Below, one piece after another: positions 38,572 to 62,297 of a stretch of 64,000 nucleotides of DNA. The translations under genes were made by a program, and so were the position numbers. The stretch comes from an uncultured Phocaeicola sp. GTDB lineage: Bacteria > Bacteroidota > Bacteroidia > Bacteroidales > Bacteroidaceae. The stretch is from NCBI GenBank assembly GCA_944320815.1, contig CALUIZ010000008.1:1-64000 (forward strand). Direction: 5' to 3'. Position 1 is the first letter of the stretch. Each line of letters begins with the position of its first letter. The notes beneath the pieces are model-generated. The model ran no database searches. It saw nothing but the letters and a program-made list of their open reading frames with translations, and had not been told where the DNA came from.

Positions 38572-39417
38572 TTATTCCAGTATCACATTCCGGACCTTCA
38601 CATTGGTGTCGTGCAGAAAGACCGATGCCGATTCACGGAACTTCTCTACTGATTCAGTGGTGAGAAATTCACACCGCCCGTTGCATGAGCAGCGGGAGTT
38701 CATTTCCGAATGGCGGTGCAGATAATCTTTCAGGCTTTTCGCTACCAGTTCACCCTGGGAAATGAGCTGGATGTGCGCCGGCATGAACCGGCGGATTTTC
38801 TCTTTCAGCAGGGGATAATGGGTGCAGCCGAGTATGACCGTATCTATCTCCGGATCTTTGTCAAGAAGTTCGTCGACATATTTCCGCACGAAATAGTCCG
38901 CTCCTTCTGAGTCGTATTCGTTGTTCTCCACAAGCGGGACCCACATGGGACAGGACACTCCCGCTACCTGAATGTCAGGGAACAGTTTCTTGATTTCCAT
39001 CGGATAGGATCCCGATTTGATGGTTCCTGAGGTGGCCAGCAGTCCCACATGTCGTGTGTGTGTAATGTCTCCTATACATTCCACGGTAGGGCGTATCACC
39101 CCCAATACCCTTCTGGTAGGGTCAAGGTGCGGAAGGTCATGCTGCTGGATGCTGCGCAACGCTTTGGCTGAGGCCGTGTTGCATGCAAGTATCACCAGCG
39201 GACATCCTAGCCCGAAAAGTTTCTTTACGGCCTCCAGCGTGAATTCATATACAATCTCGAACGAACGCGTTCCGTAGGGCGTGCGGGCATTGTCGCCCAG
39301 ATACAGATAATCATACTGGGGAAGCAGTTCGCGGAATTTTTCCAGAATGGTAAGTCCTCCATAGCCTGAGTCGAACACGCCGATGGGGCCGGGCTTTTGT
39401 GCTGAAAACGGATACAT
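38572..39417 (-). CDS. murI: Glutamate racemase
   Basis: It makes D-glutamate for peptidoglycan. It has 281 residues. Catalytic cysteines sit in ACNTASAKAL and GCTHYPLL, and the N-terminus has GVFDSGYGGLTIL. The frame is open to 39480, but that part is the hairpin of the upstream skp terminator, so the ATG at 39417 (MYPFSAQKPG) is the start. The C-terminal segment SRCSCNGRCEFLTT carries four closely spaced cysteines, an addition to the standard enzyme. It lies downstream of uppS-bamA-skp-skp, a gene order I know from Bacteroides. Confidence 0.95.
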   Translation of the reverse strand: MYPFSAQKPGPIGVFDSGYGGLTILEKFRELLPQYDYLYLGDNARTPYGTRSFEIVYEFTLEAVKKLFGLGCPLVILACNTASAKALRSIQQHDLPHLDPTRRVLGVIRPTVECIGDITHTRHVGLLATSGTIKSGSYPMEIKKLFPDIQVAGVSCPMWVPLVENNEYDSEGADYFVRKYVDELLDKDPEIDTVILGCTHYPLLKEKIRRFMPAHIQLISQGELVAKSLKDYLHRHSEMNSRCSCNGRCEFLTTESVEKFRESASVFLHDTNVKVRNVILE

Positions 39418-39427
39418 GTGCGGACGG

Positions 39428-39474
39428 TAAAAAATAATGTCATTTCGAGCAGAAGTCGCCACTCGAAATGACAT
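39428..39474 (-). terminator. Terminator between skp and murI
   Basis: A perfect 13-bp stem, ATGTCATTTCGAG (39437-39449) with CTCGAAATGACAT (39462-39474), has a 12-base loop. Read leftward it is followed by TATTTTTTA. It ends the uppS-bamA-skp-skp transcript, at least partly. Confidence 0.88.
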
Positions 39475-45606: not shown

Positions 45607-45871
45607 GAAAGTTTTTTTTCGAATCGGTACTTTTACGGCAAGTTTTATATAAAATTATATTGTAGACACTGATTTTGCATCTTGCTTTTCGGCTCCTGTC
45701 TTTTATATAAGTGTCTGTAATACAGTGGAAAATGGACGGGCATATGTGCAGCCTTTTTTTCTTCCGGTTCCTGTCCGGCAGACCGTGTCCGTGTTCGTAC
45801 AGCTTTGTCGTCCCGGCTCTGCTCCTCCGCGGGCTCCCGACGGTAACATTATAATAACAATTAAAACAAGT

Positions 45872-46927
45872 ATGGATATGACAGACAGGTTTGATATCAG
45901 CATGATTGAAAATATCTCTGAATGTATGGAACGTATAGAGAAGAAACTAGACAATCTTTTATATGTATGTGACGTGAAAGGGCGGCAGGGACCTCCGGAG
46001 TTTCCTTTCCGTCAGGACACCAATGTTCCCGAAAAGGAAAGCTCCCTTTTTAGCTTCATGCAAGGTCTGGCCGACCGACTGAGAGGTTTGGGAAAAGACC
46101 GGACGAGCGAAACTTACCGTGCCACGCTGAATAGTTTCAGGCGGTTCAGAAATGGGAGGGACATCCTTCTGGAGGAGCTGGATTCCGACCTGATGCAGCA
46201 GTATGAGGTTTATCTGGAGGGGAGAGGCGTGAGCAGGAACACCATATCTTTCTATATGCGCATCCTCCGGGCCGTGTACAACCGTGCCGTGGAGAAGGGA
46301 ATGGCTTCCCCGCAGAACCCTTTCAGGCATGTTTGTACGAGTGTGGAGAAGACGGCGAAGAGGGCCATCCCGCTGGACGGCATCCGGCGCATCAAGGAAC
46401 TGGACTTGTCTTCTCGTCCTGCACTCGACTGGGCGAGAGACATGTTCCTGTTCAGCTTCTACACCCGCGGCATGTCGTTCGTCGACATGGCTTATCTGAA
46501 GAAGACGGACCTGCACGACGGACTCCTTTCCTACAGGCGGAGCAAGACCGGCCAGCAGCTTGTGGTGAGGTGGGAGAAATGCATGCAGGAAATAGCGGAC
46601 AAGTATGCGGACTCCGCCACGGACTATCTGCTGCCCATCATCACGGAACGCGGGAAGGATGGCAGACTTCAGTATCAGAGTGCCCTCCATCTGGTGAACC
46701 GGAGGCTGAAGGCCGTGTCGAAGATGGCGATGCTGGACACAGGTCTTTCGATGTATGTGGCGCGGCATTCCTGGGCGAGCATAGCGAGGCGCAACAATGT
46801 GCCTTTGTCCGTCATCAGTGAGGGCATGGGGCATGAATCGGAGGCCACTACCCAGATATACCTTGTCTCTCTTGACAATTCACTGATAGACAAGGCGAAC
46901 CACCAGATATTGAGCGGTCTGGAATGA
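45872..46927 (+). CDS. Tyrosine-type site-specific recombinase, probable capsule-promoter invertase
   Basis: A 351-residue tyrosine recombinase. Residues 70-165 are the SAM-like core-binding domain (SETYRATLNSFRRFRNGRD) and 180-345 the catalytic domain. Active-site residues are Arg in FYTRGMSFVD, Lys in RRSKTGQQ, Arg-His in YVARHSWASIA, the His in GMGHES, and the nucleophile Tyr in TTQIYL. Tyr replaces the first His of box II, which is common in Bacteroides enzymes. The start at 45872 is chosen over 45725 because the extra 49 residues look like untranslated leader. The gene is next to a 381-bp segment between inverted repeats and then a UpxY-type gene. In Bacteroides capsule loci such recombinases flip the operon promoter. 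Confidence 0.92.
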   Translation: MDMTDRFDISMIENISECMERIEKKLDNLLYVCDVKGRQGPPEFPFRQDTNVPEKESSLFSFMQGLADRLRGLGKDRTSETYRATLNSFRRFRNGRDILLEELDSDLMQQYEVYLEGRGVSRNTISFYMRILRAVYNRAVEKGMASPQNPFRHVCTSVEKTAKRAIPLDGIRRIKELDLSSRPALDWARDMFLFSFYTRGMSFVDMAYLKKTDLHDGLLSYRRSKTGQQLVVRWEKCMQEIADKYADSATDYLLPIITERGKDGRLQYQSALHLVNRRLKAVSKMAMLDTGLSMYVARHSWASIARRNNVPLSVISEGMGHESEATTQIYLVSLDNSLIDKANHQILSGLE

Positions 46928-47178: not shown

Positions 47179-47201
47179 TCCGTCTCTTATGAAGAGATGG
47201 A
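47179..47201 (+). repeat. Left inverted repeat of the invertible segment
   Basis: A 23-bp site with core TCTCTTATGAAGAGATGGA. Its reverse complement recurs at 47583-47605 with one mismatch. The site is itself nearly palindromic: 10-bp half-sites TCCRTCTCTT and AAGAGATGGA flank a 3-bp spacer (ATG here), the form of a tyrosine-recombinase crossover site. Confidence 0.85.
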
Positions 47202-47210
47202 TTCATGCCG

Positions 47211-47241
47211 CAAAAGTAACACAAAAAAAGAGAATAAGAAA
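47211..47241 (-). promoter_or_regulatory. Capsule operon promoter, in the OFF orientation
   Basis: On the minus strand TTTC (47241-47238), 19 bases, then TACTTTTG (47218-47211): a full -7 box and three of four -33 bases at standard spacing. It points away from the capsule genes. Confidence 0.65.
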
Positions 47242-47379
47242 GATTCTGTCTATAAAAATCTGATTTACTGAAAGCTTTCCTTTGCAGCCTGGTCTGATGA
47301 GGAAACTGGCTTTCAAAGGCTTCCTGCACACTTTTGTAATCAAACACGTAATTTTTCCCAATATAATCCCGATAAATTC

Positions 47380-47466
47380 TATAGTCTGGCTGCTAGACCG
47401 TATAGACTGCATATATGGTCTATATAGTTCAACAGCCAGTCTATACAGACTGACAGCCGGACTATA
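47380..47466. repeat. Cluster of five TATAGAC-type motifs inside the invertible segment
   Basis: TATAGTCTGGCTG (47380-47392) and TATAGACTG (47401-47409) run rightward. GGTCTATA (47417-47424), CAGCCAGTCTATA (47433-47445) and CAGCCGGACTATA (47454-47466) are inverted copies. All share a TATAGNC core within 87 bp. They may be binding sites for a regulator or accessory recombinase sites. Confidence 0.55.
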
Positions 47467-47582
47467 AAATTATTCAGGTTGTTTTCAATTTTCGGAGCGG
47501 GACGCATTTTCATTCCACTTTGCAGGAGTAGACGGAACATGTCAATCGCTAAATATCTGTATATAAGAACATTATTCATGTG

Positions 47583-47605
47583 TCCATCTCTTCATAAGAG
47601 ATGGA
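47583..47605 (-). repeat. Right inverted repeat of the invertible segment
   Basis: The reverse complement of the left repeat with one mismatch. The 3-bp spacer reads CAT on the plus strand, opposite to the left copy, as needed for inversion rather than deletion. Confidence 0.85.
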
Positions 47606-47776
47606 TGGATTTCAGTCATGAAAACAGAGGGACAAGAATTCTTTTTTTGGGAATTTCTTCCATTCAATTGACAGAAATCGATACAATAAATGCCTGTGAA
47701 TGAGTGGTATATATGAAAATGCCGTTTGTTTGCAGGAGTATGAGGTATGCATCTTCTCTAAGAGACAGGCAAATCC
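47606..47776 (+). promoter_or_regulatory. Untranslated leader of the capsule operon
   Basis: 171 bases between the right repeat and the upxY-type start codon with no supported gene. UpxY proteins act on the leader of their own operon, so elements for antitermination should lie here. Visible are a weak hairpin AAGAATTC/GAATTTCTT (from about 47633) and TTTGCAGGAGTA (47729-47740), a copy of 47519-47530 inside the invertible segment. Confidence 0.5.
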
Positions 47777-48886
47777 ATGGACAACGGACGCAAGTGGTTT
47801 ATCATGACTTCTCCCGACCCTAAGCTGGTAGAACTGAAACTGCTGGAAGAGAATATCCAGCGGGAGAAGGATGGCATGCCCACTTTCCAATATTTCATTC
47901 CCTATCAGTTTCTGAAACATCGGGTGGCCGACTCCAACCCCGAAGACGAGGCGGAGGACGGGCGGTTCTTCAATCCGATGAACCGCGCGGATGTGTCGGC
48001 CAACAACCAGCTCCGCACGGCCCTGAAGCGGTATATCTTCATCCGTTCCAGCGACCGGGATCTGGAGGCCCTTTTGGGCGGGAGGGAGAACCACGACTGT
48101 TACCGCACGCTCTGGTTCTACCGCGACAAGAACCGGAACAAGCTCACCGTCTCCGACGACGCGATGGGCAGTTTCATTGATGCCTGCTGCGACCGCCGCA
48201 TCAATTTTGAGGTATGGCCTTGCACGGACCACATCGGCGAGAATGCGGAGGTAGTGCTCAACACCACACCTTTCAAGGGCTACAGGGCCCGTGTGCTGGA
48301 GATGCGGCAGGACAGGAAGGGCTTTTCGCTCACGGTGGGCATCTACGTGCTTCAGGGCACGATGTACCTGCGTCTCCCTTCCCTCCGTCTTGAGGACGTG
48401 CTCTACGAACCGAAGAACGCCGACCCGGTGGTCCGCGAGAACAACCGCTACCGCCTGATAGAGGACGTGCAGCGTCAGCTTTTCGGTGTCATGTCCCGCC
48501 GCATGGAGGGCGGCCGGAGTGAGAAGTCGAGGCACAAGGACGCTTCCCTGCTCGACTCCCTCTACAATTACCGCTACCGCACCTTTTCCGGCGACGCGAT
48601 GCGCCGCAAGTTCCGTGCGCTGATGCTCCTGTGCGCCGTCCTGCGCGGCGACAGGTTCGGTACGGAAGAGCTGGTGGTGGAGGTGAAGAAGGAGCTTGAC
48701 GGCATCGAGAGCCGTCCGAAGAGCAAGATGAGCGTGTCAGTGCGTGCCTTCCTGCAGTCCGCGCTCTACATCGCCACGCGCGACACCTCCTATTATAAGG
48801 AGGCGATGGAGTATTTCAACGCACAGAAGAAGCTTTCGGAGGTGCAGCGGGAGCTGGTGGAGGCGATGGAGAAATATGAACATTAA
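47777..48886 (+). CDS. UpxY-type (NusG-like) capsule transcription antiterminator, long form
   Basis: A 369-residue protein. It opens with a NusG N-terminal-like domain (KWFIMTSPDPKLVELKLLEEN...FQYFIPYQFLK and LKRYIFIRSSDRDLEALL). A KOW-like segment follows near 158-215 (VLNTTPFKGYRARVLEMR, then YLRLPSLRLEDVLYE). The final 150 residues are an extra helical domain (SLLDSLYNYRYRTFSGDAMR...KEAMEYFNAQKKLSEVQREL). Known UpxY proteins such as UpaY of B. fragilis are about half this size. Being the first gene after an invertible promoter and before the glycan genes fits a role in letting RNA polymerase read through the long capsule operon. GC content is clearly higher than in the following genes. 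Confidence 0.85.
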   Translation: MDNGRKWFIMTSPDPKLVELKLLEENIQREKDGMPTFQYFIPYQFLKHRVADSNPEDEAEDGRFFNPMNRADVSANNQLRTALKRYIFIRSSDRDLEALLGGRENHDCYRTLWFYRDKNRNKLTVSDDAMGSFIDACCDRRINFEVWPCTDHIGENAEVVLNTTPFKGYRARVLEMRQDRKGFSLTVGIYVLQGTMYLRLPSLRLEDVLYEPKNADPVVRENNRYRLIEDVQRQLFGVMSRRMEGGRSEKSRHKDASLLDSLYNYRYRTFSGDAMRRKFRALMLLCAVLRGDRFGTEELVVEVKKELDGIESRPKSKMSVSVRAFLQSALYIATRDTSYYKEAMEYFNAQKKLSEVQRELVEAMEKYEH

Positions 48887-48898
48887 ACAAAAAATAGA

Positions 48899-49138
48899 AT
48901 GTCCAGTAGAGATAATTTGATTCAACGGTGCCCCATCTGTCATACTGATGTAGCCATAACTATAACTTATGGGGTATATCCTTGTAAAACCCTTGAGACG
49001 GCTGATTGCCCTGTGTGTGGTAATGAGCTGTTCCATGAAAACATCACAGGTGATATAGATACTAGAGTGCATTCACTTGAACAGGCGATAGAACCTTTTA
49101 AGAGTGAATATTTAAATAAACAGAAATGCAATGAATAA
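48899..49138 (+). CDS. Small zinc-ribbon protein in the capsule operon
   Basis: A 79-residue protein. Cys pairs in RCPICH (residues 11 and 14) and DCPVCGNE (near 37 and 40), with another Cys between (YPCKT), suggest a single zinc ribbon. The rest is helical and acidic. I know no family. It occupies the second position of the operon, where many Bacteroides capsule loci carry upxZ, but it does not look like UpxZ. Its stop overlaps the dehydrogenase start by 8 bases, which suggests coupled translation. Confidence 0.65.
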
Positions 49139-50456
49139 TCAGAAAGACATTGTGATAGCCGTAGCTGGGACAGGATATGTAGGATTAAGTATAGCTACAT
49201 TGCTTGCTCAGCACCATCGGGTTGTGGCCGTTGACGTGATACCTGAAAAAGTAGACTTGATCAATCAACACAAGTCTCCCATTCAAGACGAATATATCGA
49301 GAAATATTTGGCGGAAAAGTCTTTGAATCTTATGGCGACTCTTGACGGTAGAGATGCCTATAAAAATGCTGATTTTGTGGTGATAGCGGCTCCTACGAAT
49401 TATGACCCGGTAAGAAATTACTTTGATACGTCTCATGTGGAAGAAGTAATAGATTTGGTATTGGAAGTGAATCCAGATGCGGTAATGGTCATAAAGAGTA
49501 CTATCCCAGTCGGTTACTCCCGTAGTTTATATTTGAAATATGCGCAAAAAGGAGTAAAGAAATTCAATTTGCTTTTCTCCCCGGAATTCTTGCGTGAAAG
49601 TAAAGCATTATACGACAATCTTTATCCGAGCCGTATCATTGTGGGATACCCTAAGATCATTGACAGACAGGAGTTTGCGGAAGAGAACGAAGCCATCAAA
49701 TCTGTAACTGACGTAGATCGGATGCAGGAGGCCGCCAGAACATTTGCCGCGCTTTTGCAGGAAGGTGCCATCAAAGAAAACGTAGATACACTTTTCATGG
49801 GCATGAAGGAGGCTGAGGCCGTAAAACTGTTTGCCAACACTTATCTTGCCCTTCGCGTGAGCTATTTCAATGAATTGGATACGTATGCTGAAATGAAGGG
49901 GCTTGATACGAAGGCAATCATCGACGGTGTCTGTCTTGACCCCCGTATAGGGACCCATTATAATAATCCGAGTTTTGGTTATGGAGGATATTGTCTGCCT
50001 AAGGATACCAAGCAGCTTCTTGCCAATTATGCGGATGTTCCGGAGAATCTTATTCAGGCGATTGTGGAGAGTAACCGGACAAGAAAAGATTTTATAGCGG
50101 ACCGGATATTGCAGAAGGCCGGATATTATAACTATTATAATCGTGGAGATTTTAATCCATCGGAAGAGAAACATTGTGTAATAGGTGTCTATCGTTTAAC
50201 AATGAAGTCTAATTCCGATAATTTCCGTCAGTCTTCCATCCAAGGTGTGATGAAACGTGTAAAAGCAAAAGGGGCAGAGGTTATTGTTTATGAGCCTACT
50301 CTTGAAGATGGAAGCACTTTCTTTGGAAGCCTTGTCGTAAATGATCTTGACAAGTTTAAGATGCAAAGTCAGGCCATTGTTGCCAACCGTTATGACGCTT
50401 GCCTTGATGATGTGAAAGATAAGGTTTATACAAGGGATATTTTCAGAAGGGATTGA
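49131..50456 (+). CDS. ugd: UDP-glucose/GDP-mannose dehydrogenase family protein (probable UDP-glucose 6-dehydrogenase)
   Basis: It oxidises a nucleotide sugar to the uronic acid with two NAD+. It has 441 residues. The N-terminal NAD site is [12 protein letters not shown]. The middle has [23 protein letters not shown], split over the dimer helix region. The catalytic Cys is in [18 protein letters not shown] (near residue 285). The UDP-binding C-terminal domain is complete. The neighbouring UDP-glucuronate epimerase gene makes UDP-glucose the likely substrate, giving UDP-glucuronate for the capsule. Confidence 0.92.
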
Positions 50457-50473
50457 TAATTTAATAAAAGGAT

Positions 50474-51553
50474 ATGTTGTCTTACAATATTCAACTGGAA
50501 AATAAGACTGTTTTCATAACGGGGGTCGCAGGCTTTATCGGTTCTAATCTGGCGAAAAGGCTTTGTCAGAGCATACCGGGCATTAAGGTAATAGGCATTG
50601 ATAATATGAATGATTATTACGATGTCAGATTAAAAGAAGAACGATTGAACAATTTGTCTGACTTTCGGAGGTTTGTTTTCGTGAAAGGTGACATAAGTGA
50701 TAGGGATACAGTAAACAAGATATTTCAGGATTATTCGCCTGATGTGGTTGTGAATCTAGCGGCACAAGCGGGTGTACGTTACAGCATCATCAATCCGGAC
50801 GCATACATCGAGAGTAATCTGATAGGCTTTTACAACATATTGGAAGCCTGCCGTCACAGCTATGATAACGGGCGAACCGGAGTAGAGCATTTGGTTTACG
50901 CCAGTTCAAGCAGTGTGTATGGCAGCAACAAGAAAGTGCCGTATAGCACCGATGATAAGGTTGATAATCCCGTCAGCCTTTATGCAGCAACGAAGAAAAG
51001 CAACGAGTTGATGGCTCATGCCTATAGCAAGCTTTACAATATTCCCGCAACAGGGTTACGCTTTTTTACAGTTTATGGCCCTGCAGGCCGTCCCGATATG
51101 GCATATTTCGGTTTCACGGATAAGCTGTGTGCCGGCAAGACCATCCAAATATTTAATTATGGGAACTGCAGACGTGACTTCACGTATATTGATGACATTG
51201 TAGAAGGGATAGTCAGAATAATGCGGCATGCTCCGGAACGGAAAAGCGGTGAGGACGGATTGCCGGTTCCTCCTTATAAAGTATATAATATAGGAAATAA
51301 TCATCCGGAGAATCTGTTGGATTTCGTGACAATATTACAGGAAGAGTTGATCCGGGCAAGAGTTTTACCAGAGGATTATGATTTTGATGCACACAAGGAG
51401 CTGGTTCCGATGCAGCCAGGTGATGTGCCTGTGACTTATGCGGATACTACACCGTTGGAGGAGGATTTCGGGTTCAAACCGAGTACTTCATTAAGAAATG
51501 GATTACGTACTTTTGCAGAATGGTATGTGAAATATTATAAATTGATAAAATAA
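50474..51553 (+). CDS. UDP-glucuronate 4-epimerase-type NAD-dependent epimerase
   Basis: A 359-residue short-chain dehydrogenase-type epimerase. The NAD site is FITGVAGFIGSNLAKRL. The segment GIDNMNDYYDVRLKEERL is the hallmark of the UDP-glucuronate epimerases (CapI/LpsL). The active site has Ser in ASSSSVYGSN and Tyr-x-x-x-Lys in SLYAATKKSNE. It probably turns UDP-glucuronate from the upstream dehydrogenase into UDP-galacturonate. The gene follows ugd by 17 bases. Confidence 0.92.
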   Translation: MLSYNIQLENKTVFITGVAGFIGSNLAKRLCQSIPGIKVIGIDNMNDYYDVRLKEERLNNLSDFRRFVFVKGDISDRDTVNKIFQDYSPDVVVNLAAQAGVRYSIINPDAYIESNLIGFYNILEACRHSYDNGRTGVEHLVYASSSSVYGSNKKVPYSTDDKVDNPVSLYAATKKSNELMAHAYSKLYNIPATGLRFFTVYGPAGRPDMAYFGFTDKLCAGKTIQIFNYGNCRRDFTYIDDIVEGIVRIMRHAPERKSGEDGLPVPPYKVYNIGNNHPENLLDFVTILQEELIRARVLPEDYDFDAHKELVPMQPGDVPVTYADTTPLEEDFGFKPSTSLRNGLRTFAEWYVKYYKLIK

Positions 51554-51609
51554 TGCAGAATATAGATTTTGCATATGCAATTTAAAGATAAATTCAAATT
51601 TATACATGA

Positions 51610-52977
51610 ATGGAGGGCTTTTCTTTTGCGAGAAAAATAAAATACAGATTAGTAAATCAGAATACAAGGACTAAACAATCATTAAGAAACTCTTTATATA
51701 TGTTCCTTATTAGGATGATGTCTATGGGAATTAGTTTTTTATACGTTCCCATTTTGATACATCAACTTAATAATGTGAATTATGGAATATGGTTAACGCT
51801 CACTTCAATTGTATCATGGTGTAGTTTTCTTGATATTGGTTTAGGGCATGGTTTAAGAAATTTACTGGCGGAAGCCATTGCAAAAAATGAAAAAGACAGG
51901 ATGAAAAGCCTTGTAGGGACTTCTTATATAATCTTGTCAATAATAAGTCTTTTGTTTATCCCTATAGTATGCATCGTTTTTCCGTTCTTTGATTGGGCTA
52001 GAATTTTAAATGCTCCTCCTTCGATGGGGGTAGAATTACTTGTATTGTCAATTGTTGTCATTATATGTTTTTTCCTGCAATTTACACTGCGTTTAATAAA
52101 TTCGATATTATTTGCTGTGCAAAAACCTGCATTATCTTCTTTTATTAGTTTTATCGCACAATTTATAGCTTTTATCGTGGTCTTTATACTTTCTTTACAA
52201 GATGAGAGTTATTCTTTGTTAACTTATGGAAGCATTATTTCTATAATCCCTATAGTAGTTATGCTCTTTTATACCCTTATCTTATTTAGAACTCAATTGA
52301 ATTTCTTGTCATTTACATTAAAAGATATAAGATTTTCATTTGCCCCTCAATTATTTAATTTAGGTCTTAAATTCTTTTTTATTCAACTGACAGCCATCCT
52401 TTTATTCCAAACTAATAATTTGATTTTAGCTCATGTGGCGGGTCCTGATAAAGTGACGGATTTTAACCTTTCTTATAAATATATTGGAATTATATCAATG
52501 ATATTCACCATCATTGTTACTCCAATGTGGTCTGCAACTACAGATGCTTATCATAGGCAGGATTTTGATTGGATAAGAAAAACTATTCGTGTCCTGCGGA
52601 AAGTATTTCTTTTAATGTCAATAGGAGGAATTATTTTGGTTGTAATGTCTGGGTGGGTATATTCGATTTGGGTAAAGGATGCAGTACAGGTCGATTACGG
52701 AATCCAGATTCTTGTTTTGCTCTATTTCCTTTGCAGTATGTGGTGCGGAATCCATTGTAACATAATTAATGGTATCGGCAAAGTTAAACTACAGTTTGTA
52801 ATGACCACGGTAGAGGCCTTTGTTCATATTCCTCTTGCAATATTTTTGGGGAGATTGTATGGCGTATATGGTGTTCTAACTTCTATGTTCCTTATGACTT
52901 TTATAAACACGATTTGGGAGCCAATTCAAATAAATAAAATTCTGAACAATAAAGCTACTGGAATATGGAATTCTTAA
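51610..52977 (+). CDS. wzx: Wzx-type polysaccharide flippase
   Basis: A 455-residue integral membrane protein with about 12 helices, MOP/PST superfamily. The N-terminal pattern SLYMFLIRMMSMGISFLYVPILIHQLNNVNYGIW is typical of Wzx (quoted across two helices, positions 27-62)... in short, RMMSMGISFLYVP then NNVNYGIWLTL. It would move lipid-linked repeat units to the periplasm for polymerisation. Base composition is markedly AT-rich from here on. The end overlaps the next glycosyltransferase start by 13 bases. Confidence 0.9.
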   Translation: MEGFSFARKIKYRLVNQNTRTKQSLRNSLYMFLIRMMSMGISFLYVPILIHQLNNVNYGIWLTLTSIVSWCSFLDIGLGHGLRNLLAEAIAKNEKDRMKSLVGTSYIILSIISLLFIPIVCIVFPFFDWARILNAPPSMGVELLVLSIVVIICFFLQFTLRLINSILFAVQKPALSSFISFIAQFIAFIVVFILSLQDESYSLLTYGSIISIIPIVVMLFYTLILFRTQLNFLSFTLKDIRFSFAPQLFNLGLKFFFIQLTAILLFQTNNLILAHVAGPDKVTDFNLSYKYIGIISMIFTIIVTPMWSATTDAYHRQDFDWIRKTIRVLRKVFLLMSIGGIILVVMSGWVYSIWVKDAVQVDYGIQILVLLYFLCSMWCGIHCNIINGIGKVKLQFVMTTVEAFVHIPLAIFLGRLYGVYGVLTSMFLMTFINTIWEPIQINKILNNKATGIWNS

Positions 52978-54110
52978 GAAGGAAGATTGAAAAACTGCTC
53001 CATATAAAAAAGAATGATGCGGTTTATAATATAAATTATGATGCATTAGGAGGACAAAAAAGAGTTGCTGTTATATATATAACTAAGATTTTATCACAAC
53101 AATTAAATGTAAATGAAATAAGACATGTAAATATTTTACATGCATTTCAGATGATAAAAGTATTGATAGGACAAGGTTATGCTATTGATTTGTATCCGTG
53201 CGCAAGCTATACACCGGATTCTTTAAAATACAATCATTATGATATAATTTTGGGATTCGGACAGAATTATATTAAGCTATGTGCTTTAAATCCTTGCGCA
53301 TTAAAAATATTGTTTGTAACAGAAAATGCTCCTTGGACTGTAAAAGATAATTTTTCACAACGATTGTCATATTATAAAGTAAGGCATGGTAAGATTCCAT
53401 ACACTTTATTGCGAACACAATTTTATAATAAAGAAATGTTTGATATTTCCGATGTTGGGATTATTATGACAGGCACATATAATTTCAAAGGGATGCAGAA
53501 TTGTTTTAAGAATGCGTTTCGGATTAATGTGAATGCGTTGTTTAATCCTGATACTAATAAATGCCCTACTAAAGATTTTACATCATTAAAAACTAATTTT
53601 GTGTGGTTTGGCTCAAACGGACTGATACATAAAGGATTGGATATTCTTATAGATAGTTTTGCTCAATTACCAAATTATTGTCTGAATGTATATGGTGCAC
53701 CGGGAAAAGAAATAAAAGGATTTTCCATACCAGAAAATGTGATAATACATGAGAGTGTGAATGTCTTTTCTAAAGACTTTATAGATAAGGTCATTAATCA
53801 GAATGTGTTTGTCGTGTCACTTTCATGTTCAGAAGGTATGATGTCTGGTGTGGCCACTTGTATGGCGCATGGGTTGATACCTATAACTACAAAAGAAACA
53901 GGTTTTGATGATGTCTCAGGTAATATTACATTTGATTCATTTGAAATTAAGGATGTGGTTGATGTAATTATAAAGGCTGCCAATATGAAAGGAGAGGAAT
54001 TGCAGGCTTTATCAACTAAAATATTTGAATATAGCAGGAAAGAGTATTCATTGAAAAAATTTGAATCATCTTTTAGTCAAATAATGAGTGAGGTAAATAA
54101 AATTGAATAG
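52965..54110 (+). CDS. GT-B type glycosyltransferase
   Basis: A protein of 381 residues. The C-terminal half has the GT-B pattern: TNFVWFGSNGLIHKGLDILI near residue 210, CLNVYGAPGKEIKGF, and SLSCSEGMMSGVATCMAHGL with the acidic residue that contacts the sugar nucleotide. GHGL-like IPITTKETGFDDV follows, as in family 4-like enzymes. The N-terminal half is unusual (RVAVIYITKILSQQL). Acceptor and donor are unknown. The start overlaps the end of wzx, indicating translational coupling. Confidence 0.8.
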   Translation: MEFLRRKIEKLLHIKKNDAVYNINYDALGGQKRVAVIYITKILSQQLNVNEIRHVNILHAFQMIKVLIGQGYAIDLYPCASYTPDSLKYNHYDIILGFGQNYIKLCALNPCALKILFVTENAPWTVKDNFSQRLSYYKVRHGKIPYTLLRTQFYNKEMFDISDVGIIMTGTYNFKGMQNCFKNAFRINVNALFNPDTNKCPTKDFTSLKTNFVWFGSNGLIHKGLDILIDSFAQLPNYCLNVYGAPGKEIKGFSIPENVIIHESVNVFSKDFIDKVINQNVFVVSLSCSEGMMSGVATCMAHGLIPITTKETGFDDVSGNITFDSFEIKDVVDVIIKAANMKGEELQALSTKIFEYSRKEYSLKKFESSFSQIMSEVNKIE

Positions 54111-54124
54111 TAATTTTATAATAA

Positions 54125-55438
54125 ATGGCAAAAGCAATAGTTTTAAATGAATCATATAAAGTAACATTATTTGATTACTTATATTTTTTCATAATAGTTA
54201 TTTATATGGGACAGGCTACCTCAGAAACAAGTAGAATGGTAGGTTCATTGTCTGGTAATCCTATTCCATTATTGCTGCCTATAGTGTTGACTTGTATTTT
54301 ATGGAAGAAGCATCCCATTTCTTTTAATAATAAGAACTTACATAAGGTATTAGCTATTTATACGATTTGGGCGACTTGTTCGCTGATTAAATATGGAAGT
54401 TACACGACACAGGAACTTTCTTATCATTTTTTTATGGTTTATGCCATTATCATTGCATATATTCATAATCAAATATTTGGATATAAATTAGTACCTCTCT
54501 ATGAAAATGTTCTAACTTTTCTTTGTAAGATAGCGGTCATCGGTTGGCTTGTAGCTGTATTAATACCGGCCTCCGCTTCATTTTTCAGATTGTTTTATGA
54601 AACGGGATACGGCAATAATGTTTTTTATTTATTTACTTGGATGGACCCAGCGAAAGGACAGGCTTATTCTGGTATCATTAGAAATGCAGGCTGTTCTTGG
54701 GAACCCGGTCGTTTTGCTATTATGGTTGCTTTGGCCATATTCTGTAATCTTTGTCAGAATGGAATTAAGTTCAGGAACAATAAAAATATTTGGTGGTTGC
54801 TTATAGCTTTAGCGACGACACAATCTACTACAGGGTATTTTTCTGTGCTGGTTCTTTACATTATATTTATGGTAAAGAAATTCAATCTTAAATATACTTT
54901 TTTACTCATATTAGTTCTAGGTCCTGTTGTTTATGGTTTGATTCAGTTGGATTTTATGGGAGAGAAAGTTACTTCGAGAATATCCGATGCTCAAGATGTT
55001 TCACGGTTGGAAGAACAGTTCTCATGGAATTCTGTCCAATATGAAGAAGGTGAATATTTGGGTTCCATAGATCGTTTTGAAGCTATGGTATTTGAATGGA
55101 CAAATGTGTTAAACGACCCTATATTAGGTTATAGCAGGAATGTGGAGCATTCTTACTTTAGAACTCATATTTCTTCCAATTATGCATTAGCGAATGGTCT
55201 TGTCAAAGTTTTAGGAATGTTTGGTTTGCCATTGGGACTTTATTTCTTCTATATTTTATATCGTGCTTCAGTTACAATAGCTTGTCAGAGTAAGGAAAAA
55301 AGAAAGTTAGGATTGATGGTCTTATTGTGTATGAGTGCAATTTCTTATACCATTCTTTCTATACCAGTATTTACTAGTTTCTGGTTTTATGGTGTTTTTA
55401 TAACTTCTAATAAAACTAATAAAAGGAGTATTAAATAA
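54125..55438 (+). CDS. wzy: Wzy-type polysaccharide polymerase
   Basis: A 437-residue integral membrane protein with about 11 helices. A large periplasmic loop lies near residues 280-345 (EQFSWNSVQYEEGEYLGSID...RFEAMVFEW). The signature GYSRNVEHSYFRTH in that loop, and the NAGCSWEPGRFAIMVALAIF segment, fit O-antigen/capsule polymerases, which join repeat units in the periplasm. Sequence conservation in Wzy is always low, so the call rests mainly on topology and position between glycosyltransferases. Confidence 0.8.
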   Translation: MAKAIVLNESYKVTLFDYLYFFIIVIYMGQATSETSRMVGSLSGNPIPLLLPIVLTCILWKKHPISFNNKNLHKVLAIYTIWATCSLIKYGSYTTQELSYHFFMVYAIIIAYIHNQIFGYKLVPLYENVLTFLCKIAVIGWLVAVLIPASASFFRLFYETGYGNNVFYLFTWMDPAKGQAYSGIIRNAGCSWEPGRFAIMVALAIFCNLCQNGIKFRNNKNIWWLLIALATTQSTTGYFSVLVLYIIFMVKKFNLKYTFLLILVLGPVVYGLIQLDFMGEKVTSRISDAQDVSRLEEQFSWNSVQYEEGEYLGSIDRFEAMVFEWTNVLNDPILGYSRNVEHSYFRTHISSNYALANGLVKVLGMFGLPLGLYFFYILYRASVTIACQSKEKRKLGLMVLLCMSAISYTILSIPVFTSFWFYGVFITSNKTNKRSIK

Positions 55439-55467
55439 ATATCTCATTCAAGAAAAAGTAAGTATAA

Positions 55468-56676
55468 ATGAAAGTATATATTTTGACTAGAGAGCCATTT
55501 CCTAATGGAATGGCTGCAACCAACCGCATAAAATGCTACGCGAAAGCTATCATAAAAAAAAAGGTGGCATGTGAAGTTCTTATTTGTACTCGTACTGAGA
55601 GATATGGAAAACCACCTAAAAATACAATTGGAGATGGTATTTTTGAAGGCATTTCTTATAAATATATAGGAGGAACACCGTTGAGAAGTGGCAATATTGT
55701 TCTCCGACAAATTAATGATAGGATGGATAAGGTGTGGACTATGCTATACCTGTTTAAACATCTGAAAAAAGGCGATATTGTATTAGGATATTGTGGTGTT
55801 TTCCCACATTTTATAAATACGATTATTCGTATAACGCACATGAAGAACGCATTCTATTTTCGTGATTTGTGTGAACTTCCTTATGGTACATCCCAAGAGA
55901 CTGCAAGGAATATTAAACTACGTAAATTTACTTTTTCCAAACAATTTCCATTGTGTGATGGATTTATAGCCATATCGGATACCTTGGTTACATTGGCTGA
56001 AAAGTATAAAAGGACTGATGCTAAGGTACTGAAGGTGCCTATATTGGTTGACTTTGAGAAATATTGTATAGTAGACAAATCGAACGAGGTTGATGTTCCT
56101 TATATATTTCACAGTGGTACTTTGTTTGAACAGAAAGACGGCATATTGGGAATGATTGAGGCATTTGGTATTGCATTGCGCCAAATACCTTTCCCTATTC
56201 GTTTTATTTCTACTGGAAAAATAGAGAATTCACCTCACAAGGAAGCTATTCACGAATTGATAGAGAAATACCATCTGAAGGATAAAATTTTGTTTACCGG
56301 ATATTTATCAGAAAGTGAATTAAGAGATTATTTGTCAAAAGCATCATTAGTCATAATCAATAAGTATGATACTCAACAAAATAAATATTGCTTTTCTACA
56401 AAACTTGCTGAATATTTGGCAGCGAGTAAACCGGTAATTATTACAAAAGTTGGTGAGGCTATGAATTGGTTGACGAATGGCAAAGACGCTTATATTGTAG
56501 AAGCGCAACGAATTGATTCTTTAGCCGAAAAAATAGTTGATGCTTTTACAGAAGTACAGAAACGATATGACATTGCGAAGAATGGCTTCAAGACTTGCAA
56601 GAACAGTTTTGACTATCGGAATTACAGTAAACAATTAATTGATTTTTTTACTCAGATTTCAAATGATACCAATTAA
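55468..56676 (+). CDS. Family 4 glycosyltransferase
   Basis: A 402-residue GT-B enzyme. The N-terminus begins VYILTREPFPNGMAATNRIK with the expected glycine-containing loop. The C-terminal domain has YIFHSGTLFEQKDGILGMIE, ILFTGYLSESELRDYLSKAS, and CFSTKLAEYLAASKPVIIT, where Glu in KLAEYLA is the conserved nucleotide-contacting residue. It carries an A9 run at 55554-55562. The end overlaps the ATP-grasp gene by 14 bases. Confidence 0.87.
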   Translation: MKVYILTREPFPNGMAATNRIKCYAKAIIKKKVACEVLICTRTERYGKPPKNTIGDGIFEGISYKYIGGTPLRSGNIVLRQINDRMDKVWTMLYLFKHLKKGDIVLGYCGVFPHFINTIIRITHMKNAFYFRDLCELPYGTSQETARNIKLRKFTFSKQFPLCDGFIAISDTLVTLAEKYKRTDAKVLKVPILVDFEKYCIVDKSNEVDVPYIFHSGTLFEQKDGILGMIEAFGIALRQIPFPIRFISTGKIENSPHKEAIHELIEKYHLKDKILFTGYLSESELRDYLSKASLVIINKYDTQQNKYCFSTKLAEYLAASKPVIITKVGEAMNWLTNGKDAYIVEAQRIDSLAEKIVDAFTEVQKRYDIAKNGFKTCKNSFDYRNYSKQLIDFFTQISNDTN

Positions 56677-57580
56677 AATTCCTAAAACAAACTTATTGCA
56701 TAGAGCATATGGTAAGATGCTTCACATTTTTTCCCCTTATCTTTCAGACGAGTTATATCTAAAATTACTTTTTCGACATCGAATGGGCTGTCAATTAAAT
56801 TTGGACAATCCAAAGACATTTAATGAAAAGTTGCAGTGGCTGAAATTATACAATCGGAATCCGTTATATACGGTTATGGTTGATAAAGTTAAAGCTAAAG
56901 AATACGTTGCAAGTAAAATAGGTGAACAATACATCATACCGACTTTAGGTGTATGGGAAAATGCGGATGATATTGATTTTGACTCTTTGCCTTCCCGATT
57001 TGTTATAAAGTGCAACCACAACAGTGGTAAAGGTATGTATATCTGTAAGGATAGAAGCAAAATGAATGTGGAAGAAATTCGTAATGGATTACGTAAAGGA
57101 CTCCGCGAGAATTATTACCTGCATGGTCGTGAATGGCCTTATAAAGATGTTCCTCGACGTATTATAGCTGAACAATATATGGAGAGTGAAGACCGGAAAG
57201 AACTTCAAGATTATAAGTTCTTCTGTTTTAATGGTGAACCACGTTTGTGTCAGGTTATAAGCGACCGCTCTACAGATGGTAAAATAGATTTCTATGACAT
57301 GCAATGGAATAGAATAATTGGGTTGCTTGAACCATGCAACGATGTATTTCATAATAGTGATGTCGATTTTCCATGTCCTATATCTTTTAATGAAATGAAG
57401 CGGTGTGCGCATATTTTGGCCGAAGGGATGCCTTTTTCTCGTATTGATTTTTATGATATTGACGGGAAAGCTTTCTTCGGTGAAATAACATTTTTCCCCA
57501 CGTCGGGATTAGGAATGTTTTCTCCAGAATCGTGGAGTGAAAAGACTGGTAATTGGATAACATTACCAATAAAACAATAA
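56663..57580 (+). CDS. TupA-like ATP-grasp protein
   Basis: A 305-residue protein of the TupA-like ATP-grasp group. It begins with helices typical of the group (FRHRMGCQLNLDNPKTFNEK and LQWLKLYNRNPLYTVMVDK). ATP-grasp signatures follow: SRFVIKCNHNSGKGMYICKD with the phosphate-binding loop, RIIAEQYMES, DYKFFCFNGEPRLCQV, and FSRIDFYDIDGKAFFGEITF with the metal-binding Glu. TupA itself helps make teichuronopeptide, in which amino acids are joined to a uronic-acid polymer. With uronic-acid genes upstream, an amide decoration of the capsule is possible (inference). The start at 56663 is the first ATG; the frame above it offers only TTG. Confidence 0.88.
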   Translation: MIPIKIPKTNLLHRAYGKMLHIFSPYLSDELYLKLLFRHRMGCQLNLDNPKTFNEKLQWLKLYNRNPLYTVMVDKVKAKEYVASKIGEQYIIPTLGVWENADDIDFDSLPSRFVIKCNHNSGKGMYICKDRSKMNVEEIRNGLRKGLRENYYLHGREWPYKDVPRRIIAEQYMESEDRKELQDYKFFCFNGEPRLCQVISDRSTDGKIDFYDMQWNRIIGLLEPCNDVFHNSDVDFPCPISFNEMKRCAHILAEGMPFSRIDFYDIDGKAFFGEITFFPTSGLGMFSPESWSEKTGNWITLPIKQ

Positions 57581-57594
57581 TAGCACACAATAAT

Positions 57595-58695
57595 ATGAGA
57601 TTAGCAATATTAATAGATTTTTTTGGTGGAGGTGGGAAAGAACGCAGGTGTCTCCAATTGATAAAAGGATTAAATTGTAACAATATTAAAGACATCCATG
57701 TCATCATGATAGATAATATCATTGATTATCCAGATTTATATAAAACGACTGCCAAAGTTCATATAATAGAACGTCATGGAAAGTACGATTTGGGTGTTAT
57801 AAAAAGGTTATATAAAACATTGAAACAGATTAATCCTGATGTAATCATGACATGGACATTGATAAAAATGTCATTCTATCTCTGTATAATAAAACCTTTC
57901 TTGAAATGTAAATATATTAGTGCAATTGTAACAGCTGCACAGCCCATAAAAAAATATACTATTGATGACATAACGAGATTCATAGCTTTCAAGCAAGCTG
58001 ATGTTATAGTCGGGAATTCTTATGCCGGAATAAAAGCTTATAAAGCACCAATAAAAAAATCATTAGTTATTTATAATGGTTTTGATATGGAGCGTTTGAA
58101 TAAATTAAAGTCTATCGACCAAGTTAAAAATGATTTGTCTTTAAAAACTCCGTTCATGGTGTCAATGGCCGCAAGAATAAACAGACACAAAGATTACCAA
58201 ACTTATATTGATGCAGCAAAGAAAGTGATAGCCCAACGGAAAGATGTAACATTTTATTGCATTGGAAAAGGAGAATTGATAGATTATTATAAAAGCCAAT
58301 TAAATGCGGAAGAACAGAAATATGTAATGTTCTTAGGGTTTAGAAAAGATGTAGATTCAATACTGAATGCATCAACTGTCTCTGTATTATGTACAAACAA
58401 TAAACTTCATAAAGAGGGTGTGTCCAATACTATATTGGAGTCAATGGCTTATGGAGTTCCAGTTGTTGCTACGACAGGTGGAGGTACGGATGAAATAATA
58501 CTTGATGGTGAAACTGGTTTTATTATTCCTCCTTTTGAACCATCTGTTTTGGCTTCAAAGATTAATACATTGTTAGATAGCGAATCATTACGACGGCAAA
58601 TGAGTGAAAAAGCTAAAGAAAGGATACGAAATAACTTTTCGCTGGATTTAATGGTGGAAAATTACATGTCGCTTTTTAATCGGATATTATGCTAA
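57595..58695 (+). CDS. Family 4 glycosyltransferase
   Basis: A 366-residue GT-B enzyme. The start at 57595 gives MRLAILIDFFGGGGKERRCL, with the glycine-rich donor/acceptor loop. The C-terminal domain shows FMVSMAARINRHKDYQTYID, VMFLGFRKDVDSILNASTV and EGVSNTILESMAYGVPVVAT, with the conserved E-x7-E pair (EGVSNTILE). This is the best-conserved GT4 of the locus. The stop overlaps the FrhB-like gene start by 7 bases. Confidence 0.92.
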   Translation: MRLAILIDFFGGGGKERRCLQLIKGLNCNNIKDIHVIMIDNIIDYPDLYKTTAKVHIIERHGKYDLGVIKRLYKTLKQINPDVIMTWTLIKMSFYLCIIKPFLKCKYISAIVTAAQPIKKYTIDDITRFIAFKQADVIVGNSYAGIKAYKAPIKKSLVIYNGFDMERLNKLKSIDQVKNDLSLKTPFMVSMAARINRHKDYQTYIDAAKKVIAQRKDVTFYCIGKGELIDYYKSQLNAEEQKYVMFLGFRKDVDSILNASTVSVLCTNNKLHKEGVSNTILESMAYGVPVVATTGGGTDEIILDGETGFIIPPFEPSVLASKINTLLDSESLRRQMSEKAKERIRNNFSLDLMVENYMSLFNRILC

Positions 58696-59879
58696 AGTTT
58701 TTGAATAATTTCATAACCTTTGATTATTATAAATGCCAGCAATGCGGCATTTGTAAGCCAATTTGTTCCACGAAAGCGATTTCATACACATTGTTGCCTA
58801 ATGGTTTGCAGAATATTTCCATAGATTCAGACAAATGTATCTGGTGCAAGAAATGTGTGAATGCTTGTCCGGCAAATAAAGAAAGTCTTTACACTAATTA
58901 CTTTGAGGAGTTCCCAAATAAAAGATATTTTCTGGGATATAATAAAGATAATTCCCTTCGCCGGGAATCCTCTTCAGGGGGTGTATGCAAGACTCTCATA
59001 ATCGAAGGGCTGAAATCGGGTCTGGTGGATGGAGTTTATTCCTTAAAATGTAGCACTCAATATCCATATGCAGAAGGGGCATTTTATACAAGGGAAAATA
59101 TTCCTGCCTATACTGAGATTCCCAACTCTGTATATCATTCCGTGATGGCGTGTTTGAACTTTACAGCCATACAGAGATGTGATAAACTGATGATTGTAGG
59201 AACGGCCTGTCAATTGCGTGCTTTGGAGAAAGTTGTGAAAAATAAGTGTAATACCCTGATAAAGGTCTGTATTTTCTGCAAGCAGCAGAAAACATTGGAT
59301 TCAACCCGCTTTTTGGCAAAAGTGATGGGTACTAAGATTCCGGAAAATCTAAATTTTTCGACTTGCTATCGTGGAACAGGGTGGCCGGGAATCGTTCGTG
59401 TGAATGAATCTGAACTGCCATGGAACAGGGCGGCTCAGATTCCGTTCGGTAGAAGATTATGGACTGTGCCGGGCTGTGACGTGTGTGGCGATTCATTTGG
59501 AACAGAATGCGGAGCAGACATTTCTTTAATGGACCCATGGGAAATCAGACAGCAGAATGATTTGGGAGAGACATTGATCACGGCGCATACGGAAAAGGGA
59601 CTTCAATTGTTGCAAACAATTCCGAATCTGGTATTGGAGGCTAAAACGTATCAAGAAGTGAAGCCGGCATTGTCTTTGAAAGATGTATGGCGTAAGCAGC
59701 AGCTTGTCCCGTTTTTCAGAGGGAAAGATTGTGATAAGGAAATAATGAAGGCAGGAAAGAAAGAGCGACAACAGAGGAAATGGCTGCAATTGATCGTTGA
59801 AAGATTACCGCGTATGCCATTCATTTTTTATCGGGCGTTGTGCAAATTTCCGGATTTAAGAAATCGCATTTTAAAATAA
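58689..59879 (+). CDS. F420 hydrogenase/dehydrogenase beta-subunit-like iron-sulfur protein
   Basis: A 396-residue protein. Two 4Fe-4S ferredoxin motifs lie at the N-terminus (CQQCGICKPIC near 15-25 and CIWCKKCVNACP near 50-61). The FrhB N- and C-terminal domains follow (RRESSSGGVCKTLIIEGL, MIVGTACQLRALEKVV, PGCDVCGDSFGTECGADISL). This family recurs in polysaccharide loci next to pyruvyl transferase genes. Bacteroides has no F420, so a flavin-linked redox step on a sugar or precursor is possible. The next gene, a pyruvyl transferase family member, starts 1 base after the stop. Confidence 0.88.
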   Translation: MLKFLNNFITFDYYKCQQCGICKPICSTKAISYTLLPNGLQNISIDSDKCIWCKKCVNACPANKESLYTNYFEEFPNKRYFLGYNKDNSLRRESSSGGVCKTLIIEGLKSGLVDGVYSLKCSTQYPYAEGAFYTRENIPAYTEIPNSVYHSVMACLNFTAIQRCDKLMIVGTACQLRALEKVVKNKCNTLIKVCIFCKQQKTLDSTRFLAKVMGTKIPENLNFSTCYRGTGWPGIVRVNESELPWNRAAQIPFGRRLWTVPGCDVCGDSFGTECGADISLMDPWEIRQQNDLGETLITAHTEKGLQLLQTIPNLVLEAKTYQEVKPALSLKDVWRKQQLVPFFRGKDCDKEIMKAGKKERQQRKWLQLIVERLPRMPFIFYRALCKFPDLRNRILK

Positions 59880-59880
59880 T

Positions 59881-60984
59881 ATGGACATTAAAGTAATAAC
59901 TCGTCATGCACCTTCCAATTATGGCTCGTTGCTTCAATCAATGGCTACTATAACTATTCTTGAGAGGTTGGGATGTCGGTGTGAGATTATTGACTATATC
60001 CGTAAGGATGAACAAGGACTGAAAGCAATTCTGGCGGCTCTGAACAATAAGGAAGGATGGAATGGGAACTTTATAAAGAAAATGTTGTTCATTCTTTTCA
60101 GGTATCCGGAAGAAAAAATTGCAGAGCGAAAGTTTGAAAAAATGCGTTCACAATTTCTGAAACTTACCAGAAGATGTGCTACCATTAAAGAGCTGTCTAC
60201 ATTGACGGCTGATGTCTTTATGACAGGAAGTGATCAGGTTTGGGGGCCTACAATTGATGGGAAATATGACGAGGCTTATTTTCTTTCATTTGTCCGGAAT
60301 GCTCCGAAAGTCGCTTTTGCCGCCAGTTTTGGCAGAACAGACTTTAATGATTCAATCTTGTTAGCATATAAGAGTCTGTTGTCTACCTATAAAGCAGTTG
60401 CCGTGCGAGAGAATACGGCAGTAGATTTGTTGAAACAAATGGGCGTTCCATGTGTCGGGCAGGTATTGGATCCGACATTGTTGCTTACCGGAGATGAATG
60501 GAGCAAATTCATAAACAGGAAAAACTCTTTGCCTCAGTGCTATGTGTTGGTTTATCAGTTGCATAATAATCCGACACTGAATGAATATGCGAAGAATTTT
60601 GCAGCTCATGTTGGATTGCCTCTTTATCGTGTTTCTCCCACATTCCATCAGTTCAGGAGAGGGGGCAGATTCATTTATCTTCCTGATTTAGGGGAGTTTC
60701 TTTCTGCAATAAAGAATTGTTCATATTTCATTACTGATTCTTTTCATGGAACGGCATTTGCCTTGAATTTCAATAAGCAATTCATTGAGATTTTGCCAAA
60801 TAACAAGACAGGAAGCAGAAACCAGAGCATATTGAGACTGACAGGTTTGGAGAATCGTATAGTGACTGATTTTGATGATTTTTCTATAAGCGAAAGATTC
60901 ATTGACTTTAGTAAAGTCAACCAGATACTGGAGTATGAAAGGAATAAATCATTAAACATCTTGCAAGCAATTATTGGTTTATGA
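59881..60984 (+). CDS. Polysaccharide pyruvyl transferase family protein
   Basis: A 367-residue protein. The N-terminus has TRHAPSNYGSLLQSMATITI, the family-typical start for ketal pyruvate transfer enzymes (CsaB/WcaK type). Further motifs are DVFMTGSDQVWGPTIDGKYD near 117, AVRENTAVDLLKQMGVP, VLDPTLLLTGDEW, and YFITDSFHGTAFALNF near 285 with the conserved Ser-Phe-His-Gly. It would add acidic pyruvate ketals to capsule sugars. It pairs with the FrhB-like gene. The stop overlaps the next gene start as ATGA. Confidence 0.9.
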   Translation: MDIKVITRHAPSNYGSLLQSMATITILERLGCRCEIIDYIRKDEQGLKAILAALNNKEGWNGNFIKKMLFILFRYPEEKIAERKFEKMRSQFLKLTRRCATIKELSTLTADVFMTGSDQVWGPTIDGKYDEAYFLSFVRNAPKVAFAASFGRTDFNDSILLAYKSLLSTYKAVAVRENTAVDLLKQMGVPCVGQVLDPTLLLTGDEWSKFINRKNSLPQCYVLVYQLHNNPTLNEYAKNFAAHVGLPLYRVSPTFHQFRRGGRFIYLPDLGEFLSAIKNCSYFITDSFHGTAFALNFNKQFIEILPNNKTGSRNQSILRLTGLENRIVTDFDDFSISERFIDFSKVNQILEYERNKSLNILQAIIGL

Positions 60985-62243
60985 AAATTATACTTATCAC
61001 TTATCCGGTTTCTCCTTATAGAGGTTCGGAGTTTGCCGTATCGTGGAACTATATCGTTAATATGTCCAAATACCATGAGCTTTTTGTATTGTATGGGACA
61101 TCCGGTAATGGATTTGGTAATGTCAGCGAACTGCAAGATTGGTTGAAGTCACATGATTTACCGAATGTACACTTCATTGATGTGCAGGTGCCTAAAAATA
61201 GTATCTCAAACTTTCTGGCATTTTGCCGTAAAATAAGTTATACCTATGGCTCGTATATTCAATACAAGTACTATTACAGATTGGTATATGAAAAGGCGAA
61301 AGATATAATCTCTCGAGAAAGAATTGATGTTGTGCATTATTTAAATCCAATAGGGTTTAAGGAGCCGGGAAGATGTTGGAAAATAAAGAGTGTACCTTAT
61401 ATCTGGGGGCCAATACAGGGAGTGGAAAACAGGCCCTTTTGTCTATATAGGGCTTTAGGAATGAAAGGTTGTTTGGATGCGATTGTTCGACTTGTGTTCC
61501 ATAATGGGATTTTGTTTTGTTCTTCAAAAATACGAAAAGCAATAAAAAGAGCGGATTATTTATTTGCCGCTACTCCACGAACCGTAAAACAGATGAAATC
61601 TATTTTTCATAAAGATGCAATTTATTTGCCTGAAAATGGTATTCTGGAAATGAAATGCTATAATCCTATTCATTATGAAAAAAATGAAACTTTTCGGATT
61701 GTATGGGTTGGGGCTGTCTGTTATAGAAAAGGGCTCGTTTTGTTATTGGAGGCGTTGAATCAGGTGAAAAACGAGAATTGGCAATTGGATGTATGTGGCA
61801 GTGGAGAACTTTTGAATAAATTGAAGTCAATCGTCAGGGATTCTCATATCGAGTCCCGAATCAAATGGCATGGGAATTTGCCAAGGGAGGACGTTTTTGA
61901 ATTGTTTCGGGCGGCTCACCTCCATGTGATTTCGTCACTTGGTGAAGCAACGACAACAGTATTATTTGAAGCTATGTCATGCGGAGTTCCCACGATGACA
62001 TTAGATCATTGTGGCATGGCGGGTGTCGTATGTGAAAAATGTGGCATCAAGATTCCGATTCGCTCTTATAGGCAAGTTATATCTGATATTGCCAAGAATA
62101 TAGATTGTTTGATAGAAAATCCTGAAAGAATACATACACTCTCACAAGGTGTTTTGGAATGTTCCAAAAAATACATGTGGGAAAACAGGATTAAGATATT
62201 CAATGAAGTTTATGAAAAAGCTGTATTGAAGTATAAGGTTTAA
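60981..62243 (+). CDS. Family 4-type glycosyltransferase
   Basis: A 420-residue GT-B enzyme. The N-terminus IILITYPVSPYRGSEFAVSW has the loop typical of acceptor binding. The segment VPYIWGPIQGVENRPFCLYR is seen in a subgroup of Bacteroides capsule GTs. The C-terminal domain has FRIVWVGAVCYRKGLVLLLE, GNLPREDVFELFRAAHLHVI and GEATTTVLFEAMSCGVPTMT. Donor and acceptor are unknown. It overlaps the pyruvyl transferase gene by 4 bases. Confidence 0.88.
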   Translation: MKIILITYPVSPYRGSEFAVSWNYIVNMSKYHELFVLYGTSGNGFGNVSELQDWLKSHDLPNVHFIDVQVPKNSISNFLAFCRKISYTYGSYIQYKYYYRLVYEKAKDIISRERIDVVHYLNPIGFKEPGRCWKIKSVPYIWGPIQGVENRPFCLYRALGMKGCLDAIVRLVFHNGILFCSSKIRKAIKRADYLFAATPRTVKQMKSIFHKDAIYLPENGILEMKCYNPIHYEKNETFRIVWVGAVCYRKGLVLLLEALNQVKNENWQLDVCGSGELLNKLKSIVRDSHIESRIKWHGNLPREDVFELFRAAHLHVISSLGEATTTVLFEAMSCGVPTMTLDHCGMAGVVCEKCGIKIPIRSYRQVISDIAKNIDCLIENPERIHTLSQGVLECSKKYMWENRIKIFNEVYEKAVLKYKV

Positions 62244-62297
62244 ATTTCGCTTGATAAGACTCCGTTTTTCAATATGTAATTAAATCTATATAACACA

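Follow-up and report, generated by a model that had tools for sequence, protein, structure and literature searches.

A candidate phase-variable capsule promoter, assembled in the OFF orientation, in an uncultured Phocaeicola species

In this study, we examined a capsule locus on contig C8 of the 3.14-Mb genome of an uncultured Phocaeicola sp., within a window of 64,000 nucleotides (the whole stretch of DNA that was analysed). We consider it very probable that a 381-bp segment ahead of the capsule operon is a phase-variation switch that is flipped by the adjacent tyrosine recombinase and was assembled in its OFF state. Flippable capsule promoters are well known in relatives of this organism. 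The locus joins the tyrosine-recombinase class of capsule switches, and the first-pass annotation, which had proposed an invertible promoter in the OFF state, was right in kind; this is still the best reading of the sequence, and comparative data support it. With it, a capsule switch is located in a part of Phocaeicola that has received little study. The features to which we refer are as follows.

45869-46927, plus strand: tyrosine recombinase, 352 aa (PF00589 and PF13102, above gathering scores)
47179-47201, plus strand: left inverted repeat, TCCGTCTCTTATGAAGAGATGGA
47202-47582, no strand: putative invertible segment, 381 bp
47211-47241, minus strand: promoter TTTC-19-TACTTTTG, directed away from the capsule operon (OFF)
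47379-47465, no strand: long imperfect palindromic tract within the segment, conserved elsewhere
47583-47605, minus strand: right inverted repeat, whose reverse complement is TCCATCTCTTATGAAGAGATGGA
47606-47776, plus strand: untranslated leader from the repeat to the UpxY-like gene, containing TTTGGGAATTT
47777-48886, plus strand: long UpxY-like (NusG/KOW-type) protein, 369 aa (NF033644, hhalign)
48899-49138, plus strand: 79-aa protein with cysteine pairs, zinc-finger-like (weak, below gathering score)
49131-63365, plus strand: capsule/exopolysaccharide genes, all co-directional

Anatomy of the segment and its promoter

The repeats that bound the segment lie at the coordinates given by the first-pass annotation and differ, as it had said, by one mismatch. 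The two arms are identical at 22 of 23 positions, and the extended match covers 29 nt at 90% identity. Scored as length minus 3 per mismatch, the pair reaches 20, against a maximum of 13 among 480 first-order Markov shuffles of 800-bp upstream regions. Each 23-bp repeat is itself a near-palindrome in which two 10-bp half-sites flank a 3-bp spacer, ATG or CAT, a description that the sequence bears out. A reversed control pattern of the site had no match anywhere in the genome, and an exact-site scan of viral contigs returned no match.

The best promoter in the segment does face away from the capsule genes, as first proposed. On the minus strand, TTTC at 47241-47238 and TACTTTTG at 47218-47211 are separated by a spacer of 19, with the -7 box 9 nt inward of the left repeat. 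No forward TAnnTTTG occurs within 700 bp of the UpxY-like start codon. Since the only good promoter fires toward the 3' end of the recombinase gene, the capsule operon would be OFF as assembled. We infer recombinase activity, inversion at this locus, transcriptional silence and antitermination, in the following way. The recombinase encoded at 45869-46927 would recombine the two 23-bp palindromic sites, inverting the segment and carrying the -7 box to plus-strand positions 47566-47573, approximately 210 bp upstream of the start codon of the UpxY-like gene. Transcription would then start close to the inner boundary of the right repeat, giving a leader of about 196 nt, and the NusG-type antiterminator would let RNA polymerase proceed through the operon, which encodes UDP-glucose dehydrogenase, an NAD-dependent epimerase, a flippase, a polymerase-like protein and glycosyltransferases (49131-63365) and is followed by same-strand open reading frames that continue past the end of the window.

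The recombinase beside bamI and a second capsule locus

That a tyrosine recombinase lies on one side of the segment was confirmed by its domain matches, and catalytic-type motifs (ARHSWAS, GHESEATTQIY) can be read in its sequence. Orthologs 62-71% identical to it adjoin bamI and uppS in three other Phocaeicola genomes, and no copy of the site was found in the 9-10 kb around each of the three. Together with the window's protein they group as one clade in the tree (support 97/98), and a short N-terminus sets all four apart from the other recombinases there. Of 61 Phocaeicola genomes, exactly four have matches to the site with 0-1 mismatch, and these are the four that carry the bamI-linked clade; since these genomes may share ancestry, the co-occurrence is an association rather than proof. 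On the basis of this co-occurrence in four related genomes, we infer that the recombinase would act on these sites. It is an ortholog fixed beside bamI, probably acts in trans, and is probably not an enzyme dedicated to this locus alone.

The site is present at one other locus in the genome, C12:39056-39443, as a perfect repeat pair (39056-39078 and 39421-39443). This locus carries the same promoter, TTTC-19-TACTTTTG, in the same orientation, away from a UpxY-like gene that is 99% identical to the window copy, and downstream it has its own flippase, polymerase-like, glycosyltransferase and sugar-nucleotide genes. No recombinase was found in the 19.5 kb around the locus (L003), and none is listed for the contig. 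The three central bases of the repeats are ATG in C8 and ACG in C12, identical within each locus; arms that are alike within a locus and different between loci are as expected of recombination sites, and the differing central bases may keep exchange local. The recombinase at 45869-46927 would most likely invert the C12 promoter as well, and our model predicts that its deletion should lock both capsule loci simultaneously.

In two of the four site-bearing genomes, G003 (L094, L095, L096) and G008 (L098, L099), contig ends truncate the loci. The same sites there adjoin ferredoxin, fabI, nitrilase and glycosyltransferase genes, and the segments are broken up by a dispersed repeat. Two different flanks in G003 adjoin almost the same promoter end, so that this genome has either two loci or both orientations.

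The closest known system is that of Tsr19/BF2766 with IVp-I and IVp-II in B. fragilis (PMC4747536). There, a single tyrosine recombinase inverts both the polysaccharide promoter next to its gene and a distant promoter, as we predict for the enzyme described here; both systems have a TAnnTTTG promoter, and at the polysaccharide promoter of both OFF predominates. Unlike in the Tsr19 system, the likely distant target belongs to another capsule locus, one that has a near-identical UpxY-like gene, and the recombinase is fixed beside bamI/uppS, lacking a local target in three related species. The locus also resembles the Mpi loci of B. fragilis and B. intestinalis, where invertible promoters precede capsule operons, which in B. 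fragilis are UpxY-led (PMC12632263, PMC8375218). Mpi, however, is a serine invertase with an ARACGTTCGTN-type repeat, whereas the recombinase described here is of the tyrosine type and its site is unrelated.

The genome encodes eight other tyrosine-recombinase relatives. One, a paralog on C49 that is 58% identical, adjoins a second putative invertible promoter (L022 10451-10651) with other repeats, TGTCTCCTGATGATGAGA; this promoter is assembled facing a 443-aa gene, i.e. ON.

Related loci, orientation and alternative explanations

When the family was searched with the UpxY-like protein, about 20 full-length relatives emerged, spread over several genera. A strong upstream repeat pair (scores 17-31) and a promoter precede the UpxY-like gene at 13 loci in 11 genomes, window included, and most of these loci have an adjacent tyrosine recombinase. 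At all 13, TAnnTTTG is positioned 5-13 nt inward of the distal arm and directed away from the gene, and a tyrosine recombinase is directly upstream in 7 of the 9 repeat-bearing loci outside Phocaeicola. Family members that lack the repeats make the strongest case for an OFF orientation in the window; most of them, though not all, have a gene-facing TAnnTTTG. In L110, L111, L112, L114, L119, L120 and L121 this forward promoter lies at -190 to -268, and the promoters of repeat-bearing loci, once flipped, would fall at about -174 to -269. Because the forward promoters of repeat-less loci sit where flipping would land, the orientation seen in the window is read as OFF.

Inversion itself is evident at related loci. 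The segment at L068 is inverted relative to L067, L064 and L070 (179 bp, 93-95% identity), and that at L086 relative to L085 (206 bp, 82%), in each case between collinear flanks in sister species. The recombinases of these Phocaeicola loci are 58-64% identical to that of the window over the aligned part.

Counting against inversion, promoters are OFF in 4/4 resolved loci with the exact site and in 13/13 loci of the protein family, as tallied from assemblies with one genome per species. This uniformity would suit a former switch that is now frozen, with the operon permanently silent or driven from elsewhere. We find such a history quite improbable. The arms are near-identical within each locus yet different between loci. 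An intact recombinase is present, and four species have retained its orthologs, three of them without an adjacent target. Moreover, OFF predominance is normal for working switches. In the set of related recombinase loci, promoters face the recombinase in 15/18 cases and away from it in 3/18; invertible resistance promoters were OFF in 92/96 cases (PMC8748976), and OFF predominates at B. fragilis IVp-I (PMC4747536). Because 15 of these 18 related promoters are OFF and the literature agrees, an OFF assembly is expected, and not remarkable. In switches of this kind OFF usually predominates, and finding it in one assembly carries little information. The 13/13 count might look surprising, but the control loci are also mostly OFF (15/18).

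Who flips the segment is a separate matter. With eight other tyrosine-recombinase relatives in the genome, one of them 58% identical, the neighbouring recombinase might target sites elsewhere while the C49 paralog, or an Mpi-like serine invertase, acts here. This is unlikely, given that the C49 paralog has its own, different repeats (TGTCTCCTGATGATGAGA), that the Mpi-type repeat ARACGTTCGTN (PMC8375218) is absent from the site, and that the co-occurrence of site and recombinase points to the bamI-linked enzyme. It is more improbable still that the segment is static and its repeats are mere terminator or regulatory hairpins: each 23-mer is near-palindromic and could fold in RNA, but at 13 loci the arms form inverted pairs, one arm of each standing at a fixed distance from a promoter, and homologous recombinase loci are found inverted. 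An invertible promoter acted on by the bamI-linked recombinase is the reading that we retain.

The UpxY-like protein and its leader

Across the segment from the recombinase, the first-pass annotation had placed a UpxY-type gene. Its position stands (47777-48886), but the product scores 23.9 bits against NF033644, below the curated cut-off of 100. Nevertheless, NF033644 matches 18/18 members of the long family (best E-value 1e-13) and hhalign aligns the window protein with a bona fide UpxY of the same genome at E 8e-5; we therefore regard it, despite the 24 bits, as a divergent, long relative of UpxY. Spt5/NusG KOW regions are among its best PDB sequence matches.

At full length, the AlphaFold model was of low quality (pLDDT 45), with only its C-terminal half usable, and this part was re-predicted separately. 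Residues about 211-369 are predicted to form a helical domain (single-sequence model, pLDDT 78, pTM 0.73). Foldseek ranked UpxZ (4epz) best of 350,542 PDB chains for this domain, at a non-significant E of 0.038 (prob 0.99), and VIA put UpxZ in second place (Z 9.9 over 136 residues) after a TPR-like protein (10.9). PF06603 had no match in the 18 family members at E 10; hhalign of the C-terminal domain with one UpxZ gave E 0.22, similar to an unrelated control at 0.4; and no standalone UpxZ (PF06603) gene was detected in this genome at Pfam sensitivity. Since TPR-like proteins score similarly and the sequence comparison is negative, we advance a UpxY-UpxZ fusion as a hypothesis. As in the UpxY/UpxZ systems (PMC7315117, PMC7593976), the first capsule gene is NusG/UpxY-like; unlike that antiterminator-antagonist pair, there is a single 369-aa protein instead of two. 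A single-chain UpxY-UpxZ fusion and a trans-acting, bamI-anchored recombinase, joined in related genera by a leader RNA element, might together define a distinct, compact lineage of phase-variable capsule control in several genera of the family, a proposal that we make tentatively and with some doubt. Through its possible UpxZ domain and the leader RNA of related genera, the long UpxY-like family offers a testable route to the way in which such antiterminators recognise their own operon and silence others.

The leader of the window shares TTTGGGAATTT with the other Phocaeicola leaders examined and with L110, and lacks GACAGG. The latter motif, followed by a downstream block CC/CU-A-N-N, is found in 11 long-UpxY leaders of other species and genera (L109, L111, L114, L115, L117, L118, L120, L121, L123, L126 and L032). 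RNAalifold found no consensus structure in the leader alignment, so a single stem was put to permutation instead. Its two 13-nt arms, which adjoin the GACAGG and CC/CU-A-N-N blocks and were delimited by eye, pair at a mean of -10.6 kcal/mol within a leader versus -6.6 kcal/mol between leaders, and none of 20,000 permutations was as good. Rfam had no entry for the window or related leaders, returning only tRNA and chance-level matches. The GACAGG element, with its covarying closing stem, is possibly an antitermination element.

Two smaller observations concern the same region. The C12 copy of the UpxY-like gene has an in-frame upstream ATG; in the corresponding stretch of the window copy (47747-47776) an in-frame TAA stands at codon 5, so translation in the window must start at 47777 or reinitiate. 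Within the segment, the palindromic tract of about 87 bp has 39 predicted pairs, 12 of them altered on both sides. Candidate roles are those of an insulator, a terminator or a dispersed repeat. The tract lies in the middle of four invertible segments (the window and three others) as well as in one unrelated intergenic region, at 47379-47465 in the window, L003 9157-9235, L029 4615-4700, L091 295-380 and L023 4957-5045.
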